Assembly (NCBI GenBank): GCA_018524725.1
Contig: JAEUWP010000145.1
Coordinates: 278,741-342,740 of the forward strand
Direction of reading: 5' to 3'
Length of the DNA: 64,000 nucleotides
Origin: Podaxis mareebaensis
Taxonomy: Eukaryota > Basidiomycota > Agaricomycetes > Agaricales > Agaricaceae
Below, one piece after another: positions 50,746-64,000 of this stretch. Within the stretch, counting starts at the first letter, position 1, and every line of letters starts with the position of its first letter. The notes under the pieces were generated by a model. It searched no databases, was not told the DNA's origin, and was given only the letters and a program-made list of their open reading frames with translations. Both the position numbers and the translations under genes were made by a program.

Positions 50746-52788
50746 ATGGAACCTACAGTCACGAAACGACTACACATCTCTGGGCTTACACCGTCAATAT
50801 CCCAGCAGGATTTATCTCAGCGATTATCGACTTTTGGAAATGTCAAATCTCTTGATGGAGTAGGACTTCTCGATGGGACTGGTCAACCAAGAAAGTTTGC
50901 ATATGCGACACTCGAAGCTACACCCGCCAAACTCTCAAAATGTTCGTCTCTAAAACCCACCGTTTGACTCTGGTGTAGCCTAATGCATTCCCAGGCCTAA
51001 ACACACTAAGCGGTGCGACATGGAAAGGCACGAAGCTGCGTATAGGAGAAGCCAAACCAGATTTTCGAGAGCGGTGCGCACACACAACCTGTTTCTCCCA
51101 GCTCACCCGTCCTTACACTCAACCAGAATAAAAGCGGAAAACGAAAAATTCGCTGCGGAACCTCCCCTACCTCGTAAAAAGTCTCGTATTTCCAAATACG
51201 CTCCGTATCGAGCTACACATGCAAAAGACATGACGCCAGTCACACTTGAGGGCGCGAAACTCAAGGGTGGGTGGGTTGTTACGCCGCTCGGGAGGGTTTA
51301 CCGACCGTTGAGGATGAAGCCTTTGAGGCCTTTGCCTCCTCTCCCTTCGAGTGTTTCCGCTGCTGCTGCTGCGGTGAAAGGGAAGGGGAAGGGAAAGGAT
51401 GGGACTGTGAAGGTGAGGAAGCGGGTTAAGAAGCCGGACGTTAGAGCGCGGAGGCGGAAGATTGATATGGTGAAGTATGGGAGTGTGTATCTCAAGGGAC
51501 GGTTTTTGGATGTGGATGTTCCGGAGGGAGTGGGTGGGCAGGGTGTGGAAGAGGTTCGGATGCAGCTTGATGAGGGTGGTAGTAGCGAGGAGGAAGACGA
51601 AGAAGTGGAGAGGGAGGAAGACGAACGTATGGACGAAGAGGATGAGGACGTTGAAGGTGGAGGTGAAGAAAGTGAGGCCGAGGAAGATGAAGTTATGCCC
51701 GTGCATCGATCAACCACAACGAAAACCCCTGTCATTGTCCCACCACAACCAATCTCACAACCCCAGCCACAAATACCTGCCACTTCACAATCGTCATCGT
51801 CCGGTGTCAACCTTGATCTTGAAAAACAACAATCCCTCAACCTCCTTGCGTCCCTTTTCGGTGCCTCTGCAAGTAATGATGAAGACGATTGGATAGGGAA
51901 GGAATCCCCAGGTTCTGACGTTGACGAAGCTGACCTGGCACGGAGTCGCGTTCAGGCGCAGAGTGGTCAGACTGAGGAAGTCGAGTTTGAGGTTGTCCCA
52001 CGAGAGAGAGGGTTAACAAAAAGTTTGACGCGGACGGATGTTGATGAAAAAGTTGAGGGGATGGATGCGGATATGGACGTTGACGAGGAAGTAGAAACAG
52101 AGGAGCAGGGTGCGGAAGAGCCGGAGGTTTCAAAGGTACCTTCGAAAGAGGCACAGAAACAAGCGTCCACCAAGGCTACTACGCAACTCAAGGACCTCTT
52201 CGCGCCTAGCGAAGCTGAAGGTTCGTACCATTCCTGACTTACAATAACAATCCAAGTCTCTTATATTCTACCCTAGGAGGATTCTCATTACTCGGACACC
52301 TAAACCTCGATGTAGACCTCGAACTCGACGAGGACGTCCCATTTCCAACGACGAACGACGACGCTCACCCCACCGATGAACTCGCCGATGACCAAAGCGT
52401 TCCCATCGCCGTCCCTACAACTACAGCTACGACAAAACCCGACCAAAAACGGAGTACATCCCAAGTCACGCTTGACCCTTCAAAACCACTCTTCTTCCCC
52501 CTCCCGCTCCTCGCTTCCCACCCCTCCCGCTCCACCTCTTCGACTTTCTTCTCCCTTGCGACGAACCCGAACGCGAAGAATCGACCAAAGGATTTGTATG
52601 ATACACTTAGGGAGAAAGGTTGGGATTGGCGTTCTGTAGGGTTTTATAGGACGGAGAGTGAGGATGAGATACGGAAGAGGTGGGAGGAGGAGAGGGGGGA
52701 GTTGACGAAGGGTTGGAAGAAGAGGTGGAGGGAGGCTGGAAGGATTGGGAAAAGGAGGGGAAGGGGAGTGGATGGTGAAGATGGGTGA
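50746..52788 (+). CDS. NOP8: RRM nucleolar protein, Nop8/NOL8-like
   Basis: Nop8-type proteins act in 60S ribosome assembly in the nucleolus. The N-terminal RRM reads KRLHISGLTPSISQQDLSQR, FGNVKSLDGVGLLD, RKFAYATLEATPAKLSKC and, after a short intron, LNTLSGATWKGTKLRIGEAK. KYAPYRATHAKDMTPVT and GGWVVTPLGRVYRPLRMK follow. The middle has Ala and Lys/Arg-rich runs, then a strongly acidic stretch at about 51585-51690 made mostly of Glu and Asp. The C-terminal exon encodes KDLYDTLREKGWDWRSVGFY, RKRWEEERGELTKGWKKRWR and GRGVDGEDG, with TGA at 52786-52788; this Trp/Arg-rich end is typical of the family. The ATG at 50746 opens the RRM. Only 82 bases separate it from the VPS28 stop. Long antisense frames over the acidic part are shadows of GAN-rich codons. 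Confidence 0.75.
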
Positions 52789-53237: not shown

Positions 53238-56200
53238 ATGAGTTTGCTCCATGACTACTTCAACACACGCAATCTCCAGCTCTTCCAGCGTCTGCTGGAG
53301 AACGCCGGCCCAGATAGGGCGCAGAATGCAGGTTCGAGCACCAGCGGTGGCAGGTCTTGGAAGAAACATGGAGTACTTGGTCATATCAATGTAGACGTCA
53401 ATTGCCGGGACTGGCTTGGACGGACTGTCTTACATCTCGCCTCGGCTTCTATCGAGCATCTGGAATATGTTCGAGCGCTGCTCAAGCATCCTGCGATTAA
53501 TGTCAACTTGCCGGACACCGAAAGCCATTGGACTCCACTTCATCGTTCGTTGTATAATGCGAATCTACCTGCGGCGTACGTTCTGCCATACTCTTGCGTT
53601 TTAACGTAGCTCTTTAGCTTGTTTGTAGGCGACTACTCTTGCAAAGACCAGATATTGATGTCACTGTGAAGGACAACGAAGGTTACACGGCCTTTGATCT
53701 CTACAACTCTACGCTTATCGGAACCAAGCCGTCGCCGGAAGAAGGGGATGCGTACGCGGATCTATTCACCTGGGGAGCAAATGTGTATGTGTCTAGTGCT
53801 CACCATCCTCTCCTTTCCTCTAATCCCCGATCCTCCCAGAAACGCCGCGTTGGGACTCGGAGACAGTAATGATAGAGTGCACCCCGAACAGGTGACGTTC
53901 CCACCCAAGGACGATACGGTCGAGCTTGAAAAGCAAAATCTCTCGACACGATTCCTGCCTGTGCGGGTAAAACACACTGAGATGTCGAAACTTCATACTG
54001 GTTTGCATTCTTTTCCTTGGGATGTTGTGATAAAATTGAGCGGATTTGCTTAGCTGTCATCACTTCCGAGAGTGGGGGGAATTTGCGTGTGTGTGGGTTT
54101 GGTAGTGGTGGCCGGTGGGTTCTTGTTGATTGCGTCGTTTCTGTTTGTGACTTAGTTTCTTCTGGGTAGCCTTGGTCCGAGTTCACATACACAATATAAC
54201 CTCAAACCCTTAGCCCAATTCTCTCAAACCATCGTCTCGATTGCCCTTGGACAAGACCACACCCTTGCCCTCACAAAAAATGGAGAGGTTCTAAGTTGGG
54301 GCCTGAACCGTTTCTCGCAACTAGGTTATCCCGTCGATCCTCCGACCGGCGGGCGTACCGAAGAACCTATACAGTATGCGCCGCGGAAGGTCCAAGGCGT
54401 ATTGAGGAAGGAATTTGTCAAAGGTGTCGCTGCGAGTAAATGTGCTTCAGCATGCTGGACTGAGGACAGTGTTTATACCTGGGGAACCAATAATGGCCAA
54501 TTAGGTGCGTGGCGCCATACTAATGATTTAAGTACTTTCAGTTGTCGCTGACATGATTTGCGATCATTAGGATATGATAAAGCTGCTCAGCCGGTGCAGG
54601 TTCTGCCACGTAAGGTGTCGCGATTGGTATTGCCTGTTATCTCTGTTGCTATGACTGTATGTGCTCCGCCTCATGAAGTTCGAGGCTGGTTCTGATTCTT
54701 TGATTTCACAAGGAAAATGCCATGGCGTGTCTTATGCAAAACCACCAAGTTGAGTGCTTCTACAACGACGGACACCACCGCATCAAGTGAGTTGATCCCT
54801 TTCCTATACATAACCATATCGCTAACGGGAACCCAGCTTCCCAACCCACACCTTCCCATCCCCAATCTGTCCCTACCGCCCACCCCAAGCCGCCAAAGAC
54901 TCACGTATGGCCAAAATCACAAGCTGCGGCGACGTCTTCGCCTCACTATCCTACCACGGGGAAGTGTACATCTTCTCCCCAACCAATTCCGCATCATCTT
55001 CGGCGACTGCAACTTCGTCCACCAGCACCTCAAACGCAAACGACCCAGAAGGCTCTACACGCACGGGCGGCCCCTTCAAATGCCAACGCGTCTGGGCCCT
55101 CCGCAAAAAGTCCAGCGCGGTGAGAGACGTCGCACTTGGCGTTGATGGGTCTATCATCATCTGCACCGAATCGGGGCATGTCTTCGTCCGCACTCGTAAC
55201 GTCAAGTCATCGTCAGCGACTATGAGCCAAGGCGGCGGAGCAAAGGCATTCAAGTTCGTGCGTGTGCCGATGTTGCAGAGGGTTACGAGGGTGTGTGCGA
55301 ATGCGAGTGGGGCATTTGGAGCGTTGAGGGTTGATTTTCGGCCGAAGTGTATAGACGTAAAGGGGAATCTTGTGAGCCAGGATTTGGTTAAGGTGCAACC
55401 TTGGGTTGGCGGAAGTGAGGAGGACGCGAGGTTTGCGTGGATGAAGCGGAATGGCGGAGAGGTGGAGGAGTCATGGACGGCGGATGCGATGAATGGATAT
55501 TCGCGCTCGCATTCGCACACCCCTGGGCAGGACTCGGATAATGAGGATTTGGAAGGCGAGACGGAGGATGATGCGGTTGAGAATGACATTCGCGTGCTTA
55601 AGGAGATGTGTGACACAGTCAAGAGGGAGGAGAGGAGGAGGAAGGAAGGTGTGAAGGTTGAAGATATGAAATTGCTGCATGGTGCTGATACACTTGTCAT
55701 CCTGGATTCGGGGGCGGTGTTCCCTGTGCATCGGGTCATGCTCGCTGCAAGGTCGGAGGTGTTGTGCGGACTTTTGTCAGCGGAGGCGAAGAAAAATTCT
55801 TCCGTGAGGGACGAGCAACGTAACGTCAAAATCAGCCTCCTTCCACCCCTCTATCGTCCAAACTACCCTGGTGTTGGACCCGGAACGAAAAAAGTAACTC
55901 GATTATCAATAACAGGCGCGCATGCACTCTCGGTACTGGTACTCCTGCATTATCTCTACTCGGACAACGTTGTCGCGATCTGGGACCGGCGCGTATCACT
56001 TCCCGTCGAGTTGTATGCGAAGAACCTGAAAGTCAAATTGGATCCGGCACAGATCAAGAATGAAGTGCAAGTACTGGCGAGGATGCTCGGTTTTAGACAA
56101 GTATTGAGGGCGTTGGAGAGACCTGTGAAGTGTGCGGTAGTTGGAACGATGGTGCGGGATTTGACGAGGTTATTTAAAACGGTGAATCGCCTAGTGCTGG

Positions 56201-58571
56201 GTACGGCGTCGGAAGCGGAGGAGGGGGATGGGGAGTTTAAGGCGGAGGAGTGGGAGGGGGGATCCAACGCGGAGGAATGGGAAGGAGATTTCAAGGTGGA
56301 GGAAACAAATGTGGAGCTGCAGACTAAACTGGGGGATATACCGAAGGCGCTTACTCCGGACGTGGTTCTGGAGTTGGGGGACAGGGAAATCCGCACGCAT
56401 TCGGCCATTTTACGTTCGAGGTCCGAGTTCTTCCAGAGTTTCTTTGACGAACCGGATTGGACGAGGAAACGGTGGGACAGTAATGCGGATGACGATGTGG
56501 TCGTGAGGATCAACTTGAAACACTTGAAGTGGCAGGTAATGGAGTATGTGCTGAAGTTCGTATGCTGCGGGTGTGATAGAGAGTTGTTCGAGAGGCTAGA
56601 ATTTGTTAAGATCGTGGATGATTTGGTGGAGTTCATGTTTGAGGTTATGGGCGCCGCAGTAAGTCCTTGTATCTTCTTGAAACTTCTCGAGCTAATGTAT
56701 TTGCCTACATAGAACGAACTCCTTCTCGATCGACTCGTGCTGTTGTGCTCCGACGTAATTCTGACATACTCGAACATCCACAACGCGTGCTACATCCTTG
56801 CAGACGCGACGTACTTCTCCGCCACCCAGCTTGTCGACAGAATCCAATCATACATCGCGGCTAACATGGAACTCTTCCTCGAGTCACACATGTTGGACGA
56901 TATCCCTCCAGACCTTGTACTTCAACTCGCACGCTTCGCCCAAGATAAGCAGAAACAGAAGGCGCCATTCGTGCGTGGGGGCCAGCTTGTCGATATGGCG
57001 ATGGAGAGATGGAAAGATTGGTTGGAGATGCAGGATGTGCCCACGCCGTTTGTGAGAAGTAATAAGCCGTGGCAGGAAAAGAAGAATGCGTTGCCGATAC
57101 CCAAGTTTGAGAAACCGGTTGAAGGTCTTGATGGTGGGAACAAGTTAAGGAGGCCACCCTCGGCTGACGATATTTTCGTTATGGATGATCCGGATAGGCC
57201 TGCGCCTGCGCCTTTGTTCCCTTTGACGGGTATACCTCAGCAACCTTTTGGAGGATCGAATGCAGGTGGGCCTGCATGGAAAATTTATGTGGCGCCAAAG
57301 CGAGTATATTCGCTAGTTACTGCCCTTGCTTGGTTGCTCATCTTGTTCCTAGGGTCGATATGAAAGCTGTGATGGCAGAAGCGGCCGCCAGCCAGGTGAA
57401 ACCTGCCATGGCTTCCGGGCGGCCAAGTGAGGCACCGTCAAAACTACAATGGGCACCTCTTTCTTCTGCGACTGCATCACCACAGGCAAGAGGCTCGTCG
57501 CAGTTAGGCTGGCCGAGGAAGGCCCAATCGCCTTCACAAGAGCAGCAAGGTGATGAGACACCCTGGGGGTCTCCTCCTGGTCCTACGTCTTCACAACCTT
57601 CGACGTCGCAGAAGCAGAAAACACCTGTAAGGCCTTCTGCATCTCAGGGAAAGACGCCGAGCTCAAACCAGTTGCCGAACACGACACCCACGAAACTGTC
57701 GCAGGGTTCGTCATCAATGCCATCTGGACCGGTTATGGGACCTACGATTACACCTACGAGGATGCCTGCGAGTAGTCCGAAGAGTAACGTAGGGCAACGA
57801 AATGCTTCGTATGTGCTTGTGTTATGGATGAAACGATATCATGTTGATGGAATTTTGTGTAGTGGCTCGAACAAGGCATGGGCATACACCCGTCCCGTCG
57901 ACAACCTTACGCCTGCCATGCTGGCAGCTCAAAGCACGAGCAAGGCGACTGCTAACGGGTCCAATATAACCAATACGGCCTCTGCGACTGCGTCCACCTC
58001 CAAGTCGGTGTCGTTTGTTGCAATCCAACACTCACAACAAGAAGAGCAGTCCGGAGATCCTAGCAAGGACCAGAAGAGGTCGTTGTTGGAGATCCAGGAG
58101 GAAGAGAAGGCGAGGAGGCAGGAGGAAGAGTTCTTGAGGTGGTGGGAGGAGGAAGAGATGAGGGTGAAATTAGAGATGGAGGCGTTGGAGGCGTTTGGCG
58201 TTGAACAGAGCCAGGGACAGGGACAGAGTAGTGGTGGTGGAGGCAGGGGTGGAGGCGGGAGGCATAGGAAAGGCGGTGGAAAGAGCAGAGGCGGTGGTGT
58301 GAAAGGAGGAAATGAGAGGGGCAACCGTGGTGAGAGAAGTGAGAGGGTTGAGAAACGCGGAGGTACTGGAGGTGGTAAGGGTGCACCAAAAGGCGGAAAG
58401 GAAAGAAAAAGTACTGTTCTGAATGAAGAGGCACATGGCGCAGACGTTCCGTCTGAGAATGACGCTGCCGGTGCCGCCCCTTCTTCTACTCGTCTCACGC
58501 AGGATTATCCATCTCGTCGGCATCGGAAGCCGAGCCAGAAAAAATCCTTACCAGCAGCCGCAACAGGTTGA
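53238..58571 (+). CDS. ankyrin-RCC1-BTB protein, IBtk/Btb3-like
   Basis: The domain order matches inhibitor of Bruton tyrosine kinase and fission yeast Btb3, which are cullin-3 substrate adaptors. Two or three ankyrin repeats come first (VNCRDWLGRTVLHLASASIE, SHWTPLHRSLYNANLPAA, KDNEGYTAFDLYNSTLIG). RCC1 blades follow: LFTWGANRNAALGLGDSND, CGFGSGGRLG, SIALGQDHTLALTKNGEVLS, WGLNRFSQLGYPVDP and SVYTWGTNNGQLGYDK. The long exon 54907-56659 contains BTB 1 (DTLVILDSGAVFPVHRVMLA) and BTB 2 (DVVLELGDREIRTHSAILRS), followed by a BACK-like helical part with YSNIHNACYILADATYFSA. The tail is Ser/Pro/Gln-rich and has SVSFVAIQ, a Glu/Arg-rich coiled coil (EIQEEEKARRQEEEFLRWWE) and a Gly/Arg-rich stretch at about 58230-58400. 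It ends KKSLPAAATG with TGA at 58569-58571. It is the longest gene in the window after the AT-hook protein gene region and has about ten introns. Confidence 0.85.
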
Positions 58572-61108: not shown

Positions 61109-64000
61109 ATGTCTGACCCAGGCAGCTACTGTATCCCTTCGAACCCAGACATCTCTGGTATTGGCGTTCGAACGGCGATCTACGCTCAAAATCTGCTTAG
61201 TTTCGGCCCAGCTATCCATGCTCTCCATGACGGGTGGGTCACATTAGCTGAGCTGGACTCCTTGGAGACTCAGTCAACGACCATCCTCTTCACCGCCTTC
61301 GCAATCTTGATTTCCGCCATCATACAAGCCGCTACATCCGGATTGACCAACTTCCACGCCACAATCATTCTTAACCTCAGCTGGATGAACAACACGAACA
61401 CGTTCATCTATTTCTTGCTTTACGTTCACCACAAGGCAATGGGCGCTAGACAGGATGGGTTGATTGGCACTGCTGGATGGAATGAATACTGGGAATGGAA
61501 TACACGGGCCTTGTCACGTTGGATTAATCATGGGAAGAAGGCTCTGTGTCATCCAGTCCTCATCTTTGGCTCCCTTCATCTATCCCTCATGGCTGCAGTC
61601 GGCCTTTGGCTCTGGAGTCAGCCTGGAGCGTTTGGGATCTCTTCACCATGCTCCCTTTCGGCATCTGTTGTGGTCTTGGGTCGGCGGGTACCACTTGCAT
61701 CTGAAGGATTGCGAGGCTGGTCCATCTTCATTTATGCTCTCCTCCTTGTTCCTGGCTTCAATCTCATCATTCCCATTGGTTTCTTCACCATTCCATACCT
61801 GGTATACCGTCATGCTGCTCGTAAAAGCACGCGCTCCAGTCCAAGCATTACTCCCATTGCTCTAGGATTGCTTGTCCTGGCTGCCATTGATATTATCTTC
61901 CTTGTGGATACAGAGGTTGCGATCCGAAACAACAAGCCGATACAGCAAGAAGGTGACTCTAAATGGACATTCGGGCAGACTCTCGCCTTGTTATTGCTTC
62001 TTGTTCCACTACGTGACCTAAGTGAAACCTTCCTTCAGCGACATCGAAAGAAGCTTCCTGATCTTTTGGGGGGTGAAGTTACTCTTCGCCTGAAAGATCT
62101 CCTACGTCACCCACAAATAGATTTTGACTTGGTTAGACGTTACATTGAGCAGGGCGCTGATGTCAATATCAAAGGTGTGAAATGTTCTATTTCACTGAAG
62201 ACATACTAAGGTGAATATCCTAGGTCATTGGTATGGCAGTGCACTCCAAGCTGCATCATATCAGGGACACTTGGAGATTGTGAAGACTCTGGTTGAGCAT
62301 GGTGCTGATGTCAATATTGAAGGTGTGAAGTGTTTCATTTCATTGAATATGTACTAAGGTGAATATCCTAGGTGGTTGGTATGGCACTGCACTCCAAGTT
62401 GCATTATCTCAGGGACACTTGGAGATTGTGAAGACTCTAGTTGAGCATGGTGCTGATGTCAATATCAAAGGTGTGAAGTGTTCCATTTCATTGAATATGT
62501 ACTAAGGTGAATATCCTAGGTGGTCTGTATGGCACTGCACTCCAAACTGCATCATATCAGGGACACTTGGAGATTGTGAAGACTCTGGTTGAGCATGGTG
62601 CTGATGTCAATATCAAAGGTGTGAGGTGTTTTATCTCATTGAATATGTACTAAGGTGAATATCCTAGGTGATCAGTATGGCACTGCACTCCAAGCTGCAT
62701 CATATCAGGGACACTTGGAGATTGTGAAGACTTTGGTTGAGCATGGTGCTGATGTCAATATCAAAGGTGTGAGGTGTTTTATTTCATTGAATATGTACTA
62801 AGGTGAATATCCTAGGTGGTCAGTATGGCACTGCACTCCAAGCTGCATCATTTCAGGGATGCTTGGAGATTGTGAAGACTCTAGTTGAGCATGGTGCTGA
62901 TGTCAATATCAAAGGTGTGAGGTGTTTTATTTCATTGAATATGTACTAAGGTGAATATCCTAGGTGGTCAGTATGGCACTGCACTCCAAGCTGCATCATA
63001 TCAGGGACACTTGGAGATTGTGAAGACTTTAGTTGAGCATGGTGCTGATGTCAATATCAAAGGTGTGAGGTGTTTTATTTCATTGAATATGTACTAAGGT
63101 GAATATCCTAGATGGTCAGTATGGCAGTGCACTCCAAGCTGCATCATTTCAGGGATGCTTGGAGATTGTGAAGACTCTGGTTGAGCATGGTGCTGATGTC
63201 AATATCAAAGGTGTGAAGTGTTTCATTTCATTGAATATGTACTAAGGTGAATATCCTAGGTGGTCTGTATGGCACTGCACTCCAAGCTGCATCATGTCAG
63301 GGACACTTGGAGATTGTGAAGACTCTGGTTGAGCATGGTGCTGATGTCAATATTGAAGGTGTGAAGTGTTTTATTTCATTGAATATGTACTAAGGTGAAT
63401 ATCCCAGGTGGTCAGTATGGCACTGCACTCCAAGCTGCATTATCTCAGGGACACTTGGAGATTGTGAAGACTCTGGTTGAGCATGGTGCTGATGTCAATA
63501 CCAAAGGTGTGAAGTGTTTTATTTCACTGAATATGGACTAAGGTGAATATCCTAGGTGGTTGGTATGGCACTGCACTCCAAGCTGCATCATTTCAGGGAC
63601 ACTTGGAGATTGTGAAAACTCTGGTTGAGCATGGTGCTGATGTCAATATCAAAGGTGTGAAGTATTTCATTTCATTGAATATGTACTAAGGTGAATATCC
63701 TAGGCAGTCTGTATGGCACTGCACTCCAAGCTGCATCATTTCGGGGATGCTTGGAGATTGTGAAGACTCTGGTTGAGCATGGTGCTAATGTCAATATCAA
63801 AGGTGTGAAGTGTTTCATTTCATTGAATATGTACTAAGGTGAATACCCTAGGTGGTCAGTATGGCACTGCACTCCAAACTGCATCATATCGGGGATGCTT
63901 GGAGATTGTGAAGACTCTGGTTAAGCATGGTGCTGATGTCAATATCAAAGGTGTGAAGTGTTTCATTTCATTGAATATGTACTAAGGTGAATATCCTAGG
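61109..64000 (+). CDS. multi-pass membrane protein with a tandem ankyrin-exon array (3' end outside window)
   Basis: I do not recognise a named gene. The first exon (61109-62174, start MSDPGSYCIPSNPDISGIGV) encodes about 356 residues. These include some six hydrophobic segments, at about residues 58-77, 88-108, 149-169, 205-233, 247-267 and 289-303, and the motif NLSWMNNTNTFIYF. A short soluble part follows (RHRKKLPDLLGGEVTLRLKD) and the first ankyrin tail (RRYIEQGADVNIKG). From 62224 every exon is 99 bases and encodes one 33-residue ankyrin repeat of the type GQYGTALQAAS-x-QGHLEIV ... GADVNIKG, separated by 49-base introns. Twelve such exons lie in the window and a thirteenth begins at base 64000. 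All introns are phase 1. Upstream in-frame codons before the ATG lack another ATG. The protein is probably a membrane-anchored ankyrin scaffold or receptor; the ligand is unknown. Confidence 0.8.
62175..64000 (+). repeat. 148-base exon-plus-intron tandem array
   Basis: The unit is a 99-base ankyrin exon plus a 49-base intron. Exons start at 62224, 62372, 62520, 62668, 62816, 62964, 63112, 63260, 63408, 63556, 63704 and 63852, exactly 148 bases apart, with no indel. Introns begin GTGTGA, contain a TACTAAG-type branch site (GACTAAG in the one starting at 63507) and end CCTAG (CCCAG in the one starting at 63359). Introns starting at 62767, 62915 and 63063 are identical to each other, as are those at 62323, 63211 and 63951. 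The array continues past the window edge. Confidence 0.95.

Follow-up and report, generated by a model that had tools for sequence, protein, structure and literature searches.

A fungal gene that probably encodes a membrane-anchored ankyrin protein with its repeats carried by tandem exon-intron units

Introduction

How would a gene come to carry each of its ankyrin repeats on an exon of its own, with a nearly identical intron beside every one of them, and what could such a gene do? Copy-number arrays of exon-intron units are known in animals, as in LPA kringle IV type 2, nebulin and ankyrin genes with one-repeat exons, and animal introns are mostly far longer than 49 bases. Here we analyze an array with introns of that length at the end of a 64,000-nucleotide stretch of DNA from the fungus Podaxis mareebaensis (the window), whose last base is also the last base of its contig, C120.

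Results

An array in perfect 148-base register

Between positions 62175 and 64000, thirteen 49-base introns alternate with twelve 99-base exons in perfect 148-base register. TRF returned an array at 62145-64000 with a period of 148, 12.5 copies, 93% matches and 0% indels. Phase-1 introns flank every exon, and all 12 exons are 99 bases long, open and readable as one 33-residue ankyrin repeat (phase 1-1). A typical reading of the array exons, one ankyrin repeat apiece, is GGQYGTALQAASYQGHLEIVKTLVEHGADVNIK, and a single exon (62966-63061) scored 35.0 bits with Pfam Ank (cut-off 21.1). The TRF result, the splice signals and the open frames bear out the regularity claimed in an initial annotation of the window, both for the lengths without indels and for the single repeat per exon between phase-1 introns, and the 148-base register supports its claim that the intron was copied together with the repeat, as a whole exon-intron unit. 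The features of the gene, including its continuation on a second contig, are as follows.

61109..62174, plus strand: exon 1, with a multipass membrane domain (approximately residues 1-320) and an N-terminal capping ankyrin repeat (open frame, homologs, AlphaFold model)
62175..62223, plus strand: intron 1, 49 bases, by eye the most diverged among the 13 introns of the window
62224..63950, plus strand: twelve 99-base ankyrin exons, phase 1-1, with starts at 62224 + 148n (n = 0-11), that is 62224, 62372, 62520, 62668, 62816, 62964, 63112, 63260, 63408, 63556, 63704 and 63852 (splice signals, frame, ankyrin scores)
62323..63999, plus strand: introns 2-13, 49 bases each, with starts at 62323 + 148n (n = 0-11) (sequence, splice signals)
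62303..62342, plus strand: example of the 40-base exon-to-intron junction stretch, at the first junction after a full exon, echoed 49 bases on (unit consensus)
64000..64000, plus strand: first base of the next exon, the last base of contig C120 (contig end)
C297:1-320 (L004:1-320): last 25 bases of an exon, intron 26-74, regular exon 75-173, intron 174-222 and terminal exon from 223 (in-frame TAA)

Exon 1 is open over 355 whole codons and ends in phase 1 (AAAG/GTGTGA). All 13 introns of the window start with GTGTGA and contain an internal ACTAAG, which reads TACTAAG in 12 and GACTAAG in one; 12 end in CCTAG and one in CCCAG. If retained, each of the 15 introns (13 in the window and two on C297) would present an in-frame TAA within the (T/G)ACTAAG motif.

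GTGTGA is a weak donor for a fungal intron, and this counts against the gene model. We enumerated 23 conserved periodic GT-AG pairs, 11 of which keep the frame length and seven of which are open. Two of these seven combine a 49-base intron with a full 33-residue ankyrin repeat: the model of the initial annotation and one placed 13 bases upstream (GAT/GTCAAT ... TACTAAG/G), where VNILG replaces VNIKG. The 148-base register and the array are identical under both. As a matter of judgement we prefer the former, since TACTAAG then remains as a branch site before the YAG acceptor.

A similar array was absent from the other ankyrin loci scanned with the repeat profile (L018-L040, L045 and L046, which partly overlap, L040 being C297). 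Ankyrin hits spaced by 148 bases also occur at C330:35465, but this locus was discarded as an ordinary ankyrin gene with introns that are, by eye, unrelated. The previous statement that ankyrin arrays usually lie inside long exons agrees with the few other ankyrin genes of this genome with at least two placed repeats, but one-repeat exons alone are not the novelty, since ankyrin genes with such exons are known in animals. Within the window, an Ank_2 match of 33.6 bits lies at 53388-53582, about 7.5 kb upstream of the array gene, and short minisatellites occupy 51586-51642, 56215-56303 and 58095-58163; two or more of these would be rich in acidic codons when read in frame.

The array resumes on a second contig

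The array does not stop at the edge of the window: C120 ends at 64000 and the array resumes on contig C297. A DNA search of the assembly located the array at two places only, the end of C120 and the first 324 bases of C297. The second half of the terminal exon on C297 has diverged into a capping repeat, followed by a TAA. In addition, a 35-base piece of the intron, searched genome-wide with up to three mismatches, was found at 14 places, 12 on C120 and two on C297, and a backward control gave none. With the array at two places and the intron piece confined to them, the broken ends of C120 and C297 are therefore most simply read as one gene.

The same search bears on introner-like elements, which are listed among the routes of intron gain in the sections consulted of PMC4974935. 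Under this explanation the near-identical introns, found here in a fungus, would be copies of a mobile intron inserted into each repeat. However, the exons were copied along with the introns in the 148-base register, and all 14 genome matches are confined to the array, so we reject an origin that we find hardly credible.

The regular exon on C297 is unlike any of the 12 in the window, and all 13 regular exons are distinct. Pairwise differences among the 12 units of the window range from 2 to 14 bases. The count of 14 units is a minimum, made of these 12, one distinct regular unit on C297 and the terminal one. The gene likely consists of the multipass membrane exon, at least 14 distinct ankyrin exons and a stop.

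The breaks of C120 and C297 fall in exact repeats of 77 and 74 bases, and the longest exact repeat inside the array measures 116 bases. Unit number and order are unsafe, because both contig ends lie in these exact 74-77-base repeats. Hence, the assembler might have inflated or scrambled a short array, and for repeats of this kind in Podospora short-read assemblies are reported to omit or create units (PMC12222747, in part). Against this, all 12 units differ from one another and C297 supplies a further distinct unit together with an end exon; we therefore reject a pure assembly artefact, which we consider very improbable. Beside the array end, C297 (L004) carries by eye an AAA+ disaggregase-like gene on the minus strand from about 670, followed by an aldolase-like gene at about 4.05 kb.

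A predicted multipass membrane domain

In the Pfam scan, exon 1 gave no family above cut-off (HupE_UreJ only, below its own cut-off), and the NCBIfam scan gave no match at E ≤ 0.01. AlphaFold modelled exon 1 with a mean pLDDT of 89.6 and long helices, and a structure search with the membrane-domain model retrieved no convincing resemblance to solved structures. Counting the helices of the model, there are about seven membrane helices with the C-terminus inside, and most loop charges fit this arrangement. Hydropathy alone gives six membrane segments, not seven, and the charge of loop 192-205 contradicts the proposed topology. On the model, we infer a cytosolic ankyrin stack. Neither a NACHT nor an NB-ARC domain was found by the Pfam scan of exon 1 in the readable part of the array gene. 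The earlier proposal of symmetric units (phase 1-1) and of a membrane protein with a modular ankyrin array is supported.

Relatives in other Agaricales

Searching for homologs of the membrane domain, we obtained 348 proteins at E ≤ 0.001 among 7997 scored, the best one other than the protein itself with 58% identity over 98%. The domain was carried by 146 of the 240 fetched proteins, that of the window included as one; several of the 146 have long ankyrin arrays, and the 45 longest relatives shown have 36-61% local identity in the membrane domain. Both parts, membrane domain and ankyrin repeats, occur together in Mycena, Tetrapyrgos and Moniliophthora and also, by Pfam annotation, in Leucocoprinus; examples are P0123 (Mycena venus), P0163 (Moniliophthora roreri) and P0142 (Tetrapyrgos nigripes). 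In four checks of taxonomic order, Mycena, Tetrapyrgos and Moniliophthora all proved to be Agaricales. In the model of P0163 (mean pLDDT 91.3), the membrane helices lead by way of a long helix to an ankyrin stack.

These proteins share with ours the membrane domain and the ankyrin repeats of the GGxYGTALQAAS type that follow it, but they are known as predicted proteins, without readable exon structure. Mean internal repeat identity was 0.62-0.86 in eight relatives versus 0.854 in the array gene. P0124 (Mycena leptocephala) combines ankyrin repeats of 33 residues with a longer version of about 50 (17 extra) that itself recurs several times, a two-unit higher-order repeat. Relatives of the membrane domain were found neither in viral contigs nor in bacterial or archaeal genomes. 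We know of no described function for this large Agaricales membrane-ankyrin family.

In the same genome, the membrane-domain paralogs on C4, C423 and C330 have by eye no ankyrin repeats, and none of the five fetched paralog stretches gave two or more ankyrin hits in the repeat-profile scan. Three tandem paralogs lie at C330:237745-243322 (L015 and L016), with no visible ankyrin repeats and, in one of them, an in-frame TAG within the match. At C78:16689-17070 (L017) there is an incomplete copy of the C423 gene, internally deleted and probably a pseudogene.

Origin of the intron

The array had also been taken as intron gain by segmental duplication. Duplication did multiply an existing intron; the birth of that intron, however, may be an earlier and smaller tandem duplication. 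Forty bases spanning the exon-to-intron junction and forty spanning the intron-to-exon junction agree at 26 positions when offset by 49, which is the intron length. Over all 147 offsets of the unit consensus the mean is 10.5 and the next best value 17. The intron start matches the start of the following exon at 12/20 positions, and the intron end that of the preceding exon at 14/20. With the splice signals kept, 10 of 20000 shuffles reached 26/40 (otherwise 0 or 1), and the halves taken apart gave P values of 0.06 for the 3' half and 0.009 for the 5' half. Local alignment of intron and exon was not significant when unanchored (100/1000 shuffles), and 0/1000 shuffles equalled it when it was 3'-anchored.

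Intron gain by tandem duplication of an AGGT-containing segment has been modelled (PMC3443670 and PMC4974935, in the sections consulted). The array resembles the outcome of such an event in that a direct repeat, spaced by precisely the length of the intron, surrounds both splice junctions, and the copying of an existing intron-exon piece is also on record in these sources, for a potato RdRp. It differs in that the resulting unit has been amplified at least a dozen times in register. Judging from the sequence, the intron may have been born by a 49-base tandem duplication around AGGT.

The relatives add information on age. Forty-one relatives, picked for having no NCBI source, were taken as ORFs called without introns; 10 of them lack the anchor motif, and the tails of the other 31 were examined. 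In 24 of the 31 tails a glycine occupies the place of the junction glycine of the array gene, and most of these ORFs end soon after. The next residue is, by eye, K, E or M in 16 of the 24, as read-through of GTAAG, GTGAG or GTATG would give, and in at least P0045, P0103, P0108 and P0109 the glycine looks like chance. Because of these glycines, the intron at the first junction is probably older than the array. If it is old in the family, its persisting similarity to the exons is surprising, and this weighs against the proposed history of intron birth. In two short ORFs, P0243 and P0244, the ankyrin repeat is directly followed by a terminal GEKCLISN and GAKCLISN, respectively, compared with GVKCFISLN when the array is read into its intron. 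Since they leave the repeat through text like that of the array intron, other genomes probably contain related exon-intron units. The third of the three matches, P0242 (annotated, Pholiota), has two repeats side by side and is uninformative on introns.

Changes among units cluster on the binding face

Mean pairwise identity among repeats is 0.854, and identity to the consensus over 13 repeats is 0.909. These values fall within what PMC4986451, in the sections consulted, defines as high internal conservation (over 85% identity over at least 100 residues), our measure differing from the T-reks of that paper. All four combinations were present in 34 of 91 pairs of informative sites, a pattern given by exchange between units or by recurrent change. 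Units near the array ends tend to be more distinct, and neighbouring units show no clear excess of similarity over other pairs (P 0.07).

Among the 27 distinct base changes in the 13 regular exons, 22 alter the protein, with no significant excess (P 0.08-0.29); mean NG86 dN is 0.084 and dS 0.068, with an intron difference of 0.054. We defined as binding positions those varied in designed ankyrin binders, position 33 included. Positions 2, 3, 5, 13 and 14 were derived from the residue numbers of PMC3602593 (in part), mapped with repeat starts that we inferred. Twelve of the 22 amino-acid changes fall on positions 2, 3, 5, 13, 14 and 33, against 17.5% expected (P 9e-5), none of them on position 5. 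Per site, changes in binding codons are about 3-fold those of the whole intron (P 0.003) and about 2-fold those of the intron core (P 0.08; 0.04 without intron 1).

In eight relatives, the variable sites are partly the same (rank correlation 0.49), and variability at the binding positions does not significantly exceed that at the other free positions (P 0.22). Sites that vary in the relatives too, with binding positions not outstanding there, make relaxed constraint a possible explanation. Strong positive selection is weakened as a candidate by the overall share of amino-acid changes, which is not significant, and by the less clear contrast with the intron core. The binding face appears to be where the protein is allowed or driven to change, and the signs of selection are only suggestive.

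It could be argued that the array is a passive minisatellite, sitting in a gene that was formerly functional, which grew by slippage or unequal exchange, is not kept by selection and is still open in frame as its copies are young. The introns are also free of indels, as young copies would be, the proportion of changes that alter an amino acid shows no significant departure from random, and the framework does not change significantly less often than the whole intron (P 0.11). Yet framework changes are rarer than those of the intron core (P 0.01), the 13 regular exons contain no stops, the frame of the membrane exon is open and each of the two caps can be read, and so we regard this as improbable.

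The gene might also encode, rather than a recognition receptor, a membrane protein of ordinary kind, an ankyrin scaffold or a channel-like protein, with a long array whose unit number drifts without function. It would agree with the many relatives listed without a described function, with a membrane part lacking a known family or a convincing fold match, and with variable sites partly common to the relatives. It agrees less well with the clustering of changes on the binding positions and with a strong conservation among the repeats, such as is enriched in fungal NLRs (PMC4986451, in part). We consider it quite possible, albeit short of an even chance.

Discussion

According to these results, we think it probable that the locus is a gene for a membrane-anchored ankyrin protein whose binding domain is made of tandem whole exon-intron units, with its introns spliced and C120 joined to C297, serving as a variable-length sensor or scaffold. 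The intron would have come from a tandem duplication of 49 bases around an AGGT where two repeats meet, and later 148-base duplications would have copied repeat and intron together. Unequal crossing-over or conversion between units would gain or lose repeats, and exchange in register would keep the frame wherever it falls, because what is repeated is an exon together with its intron. At the RNA level, skipping any number of exons would likewise keep the frame and give similar changes in length, while a retained intron would stop translation at the branch-site TAA; splicing errors or regulation could then yield a ladder of receptors with differing repeat numbers. Each added unit would lengthen the protein-binding surface, and changes at the fingertip and inner-helix positions would alter the binding partner. 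A cytosolic ankyrin surface of variable length at the membrane suggests a sensor or scaffold there as the most likely role.

Arrays with homogenised introns are known already. In the MaSp2 dragline silk genes of Argiope, nearly identical small introns separate exons of similar size that mark the repeat units, the intron lies in a glycine codon in most MaSp2.2 paralogs, and homogenised introns are proposed to help homogenise the coding repeats (PMC9779670, in the sections consulted). The repetitive exon-intron pattern is alike, but that is an animal silk, whereas here a fungal membrane protein is predicted, with one folded 33-residue repeat per exon and a 148-base unit. Dscam, with its exon arrays (PMC1397879, in part), also shows whole exons with flanking introns duplicated in tandem; its exons are mutually exclusive, while the simplest reading of the array gene puts all units in one protein. 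In the open literature, searched through titles and abstract openings, no fungal ankyrin gene made of exon-intron units was found, and a fungal ankyrin gene would, from its sequence, be the new setting for such an array.

Fungal recognition genes shuffle near-identical repeats (PMC4986451, in part), and repeat-number polymorphism is described in fungal NLR genes with conserved WD, TPR and ANK repeats (PMC4986451 and PMC12222747, in the sections consulted). The array resembles the ankyrin-bearing genes among them in its near-identical tandem repeats, its variation on the concave face and its trouble with short-read assembly. It differs by a multipass membrane domain, by the lack of NACHT or NB-ARC in its readable part and by having each repeat on its own exon; the main texts of both papers contain no word beginning with 'intron'. 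By analogy, the gene might encode an allorecognition (heterokaryon incompatibility) or immune receptor that shuffles its sensor through the units, as Podospora NLRs do with their WD, TPR and ankyrin repeats. The changes on the binding face, and repeat behaviour like that of fungal NLR repeats under diversifying selection (PMC4986451 and PMC12222747, in part), would agree with this; the missing nucleotide-binding domain and the membrane-domain paralogs of the genome, which are without ankyrin repeats, would not. We hold this role to be unlikely, although some recognition function of the putative receptor is plausible.

Returning to the variable-length sensor or scaffold, a bolder form of it would have binding length set at two levels by one 148-base module, itself born by AGGT duplication: units would be gained or lost in the DNA, and exons skipped or introns retained in the RNA. 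We put this forward as a rather doubtful idea.

The near-identical intron next to every repeat offers a built-in, nearly neutral yardstick for selection on that repeat. The locus is also a compact one where the birth of an intron and its multiplication, two successive tandem duplications, might both be read. Finally, the array gene draws attention to the large family of membrane-ankyrin proteins of the Agaricales.
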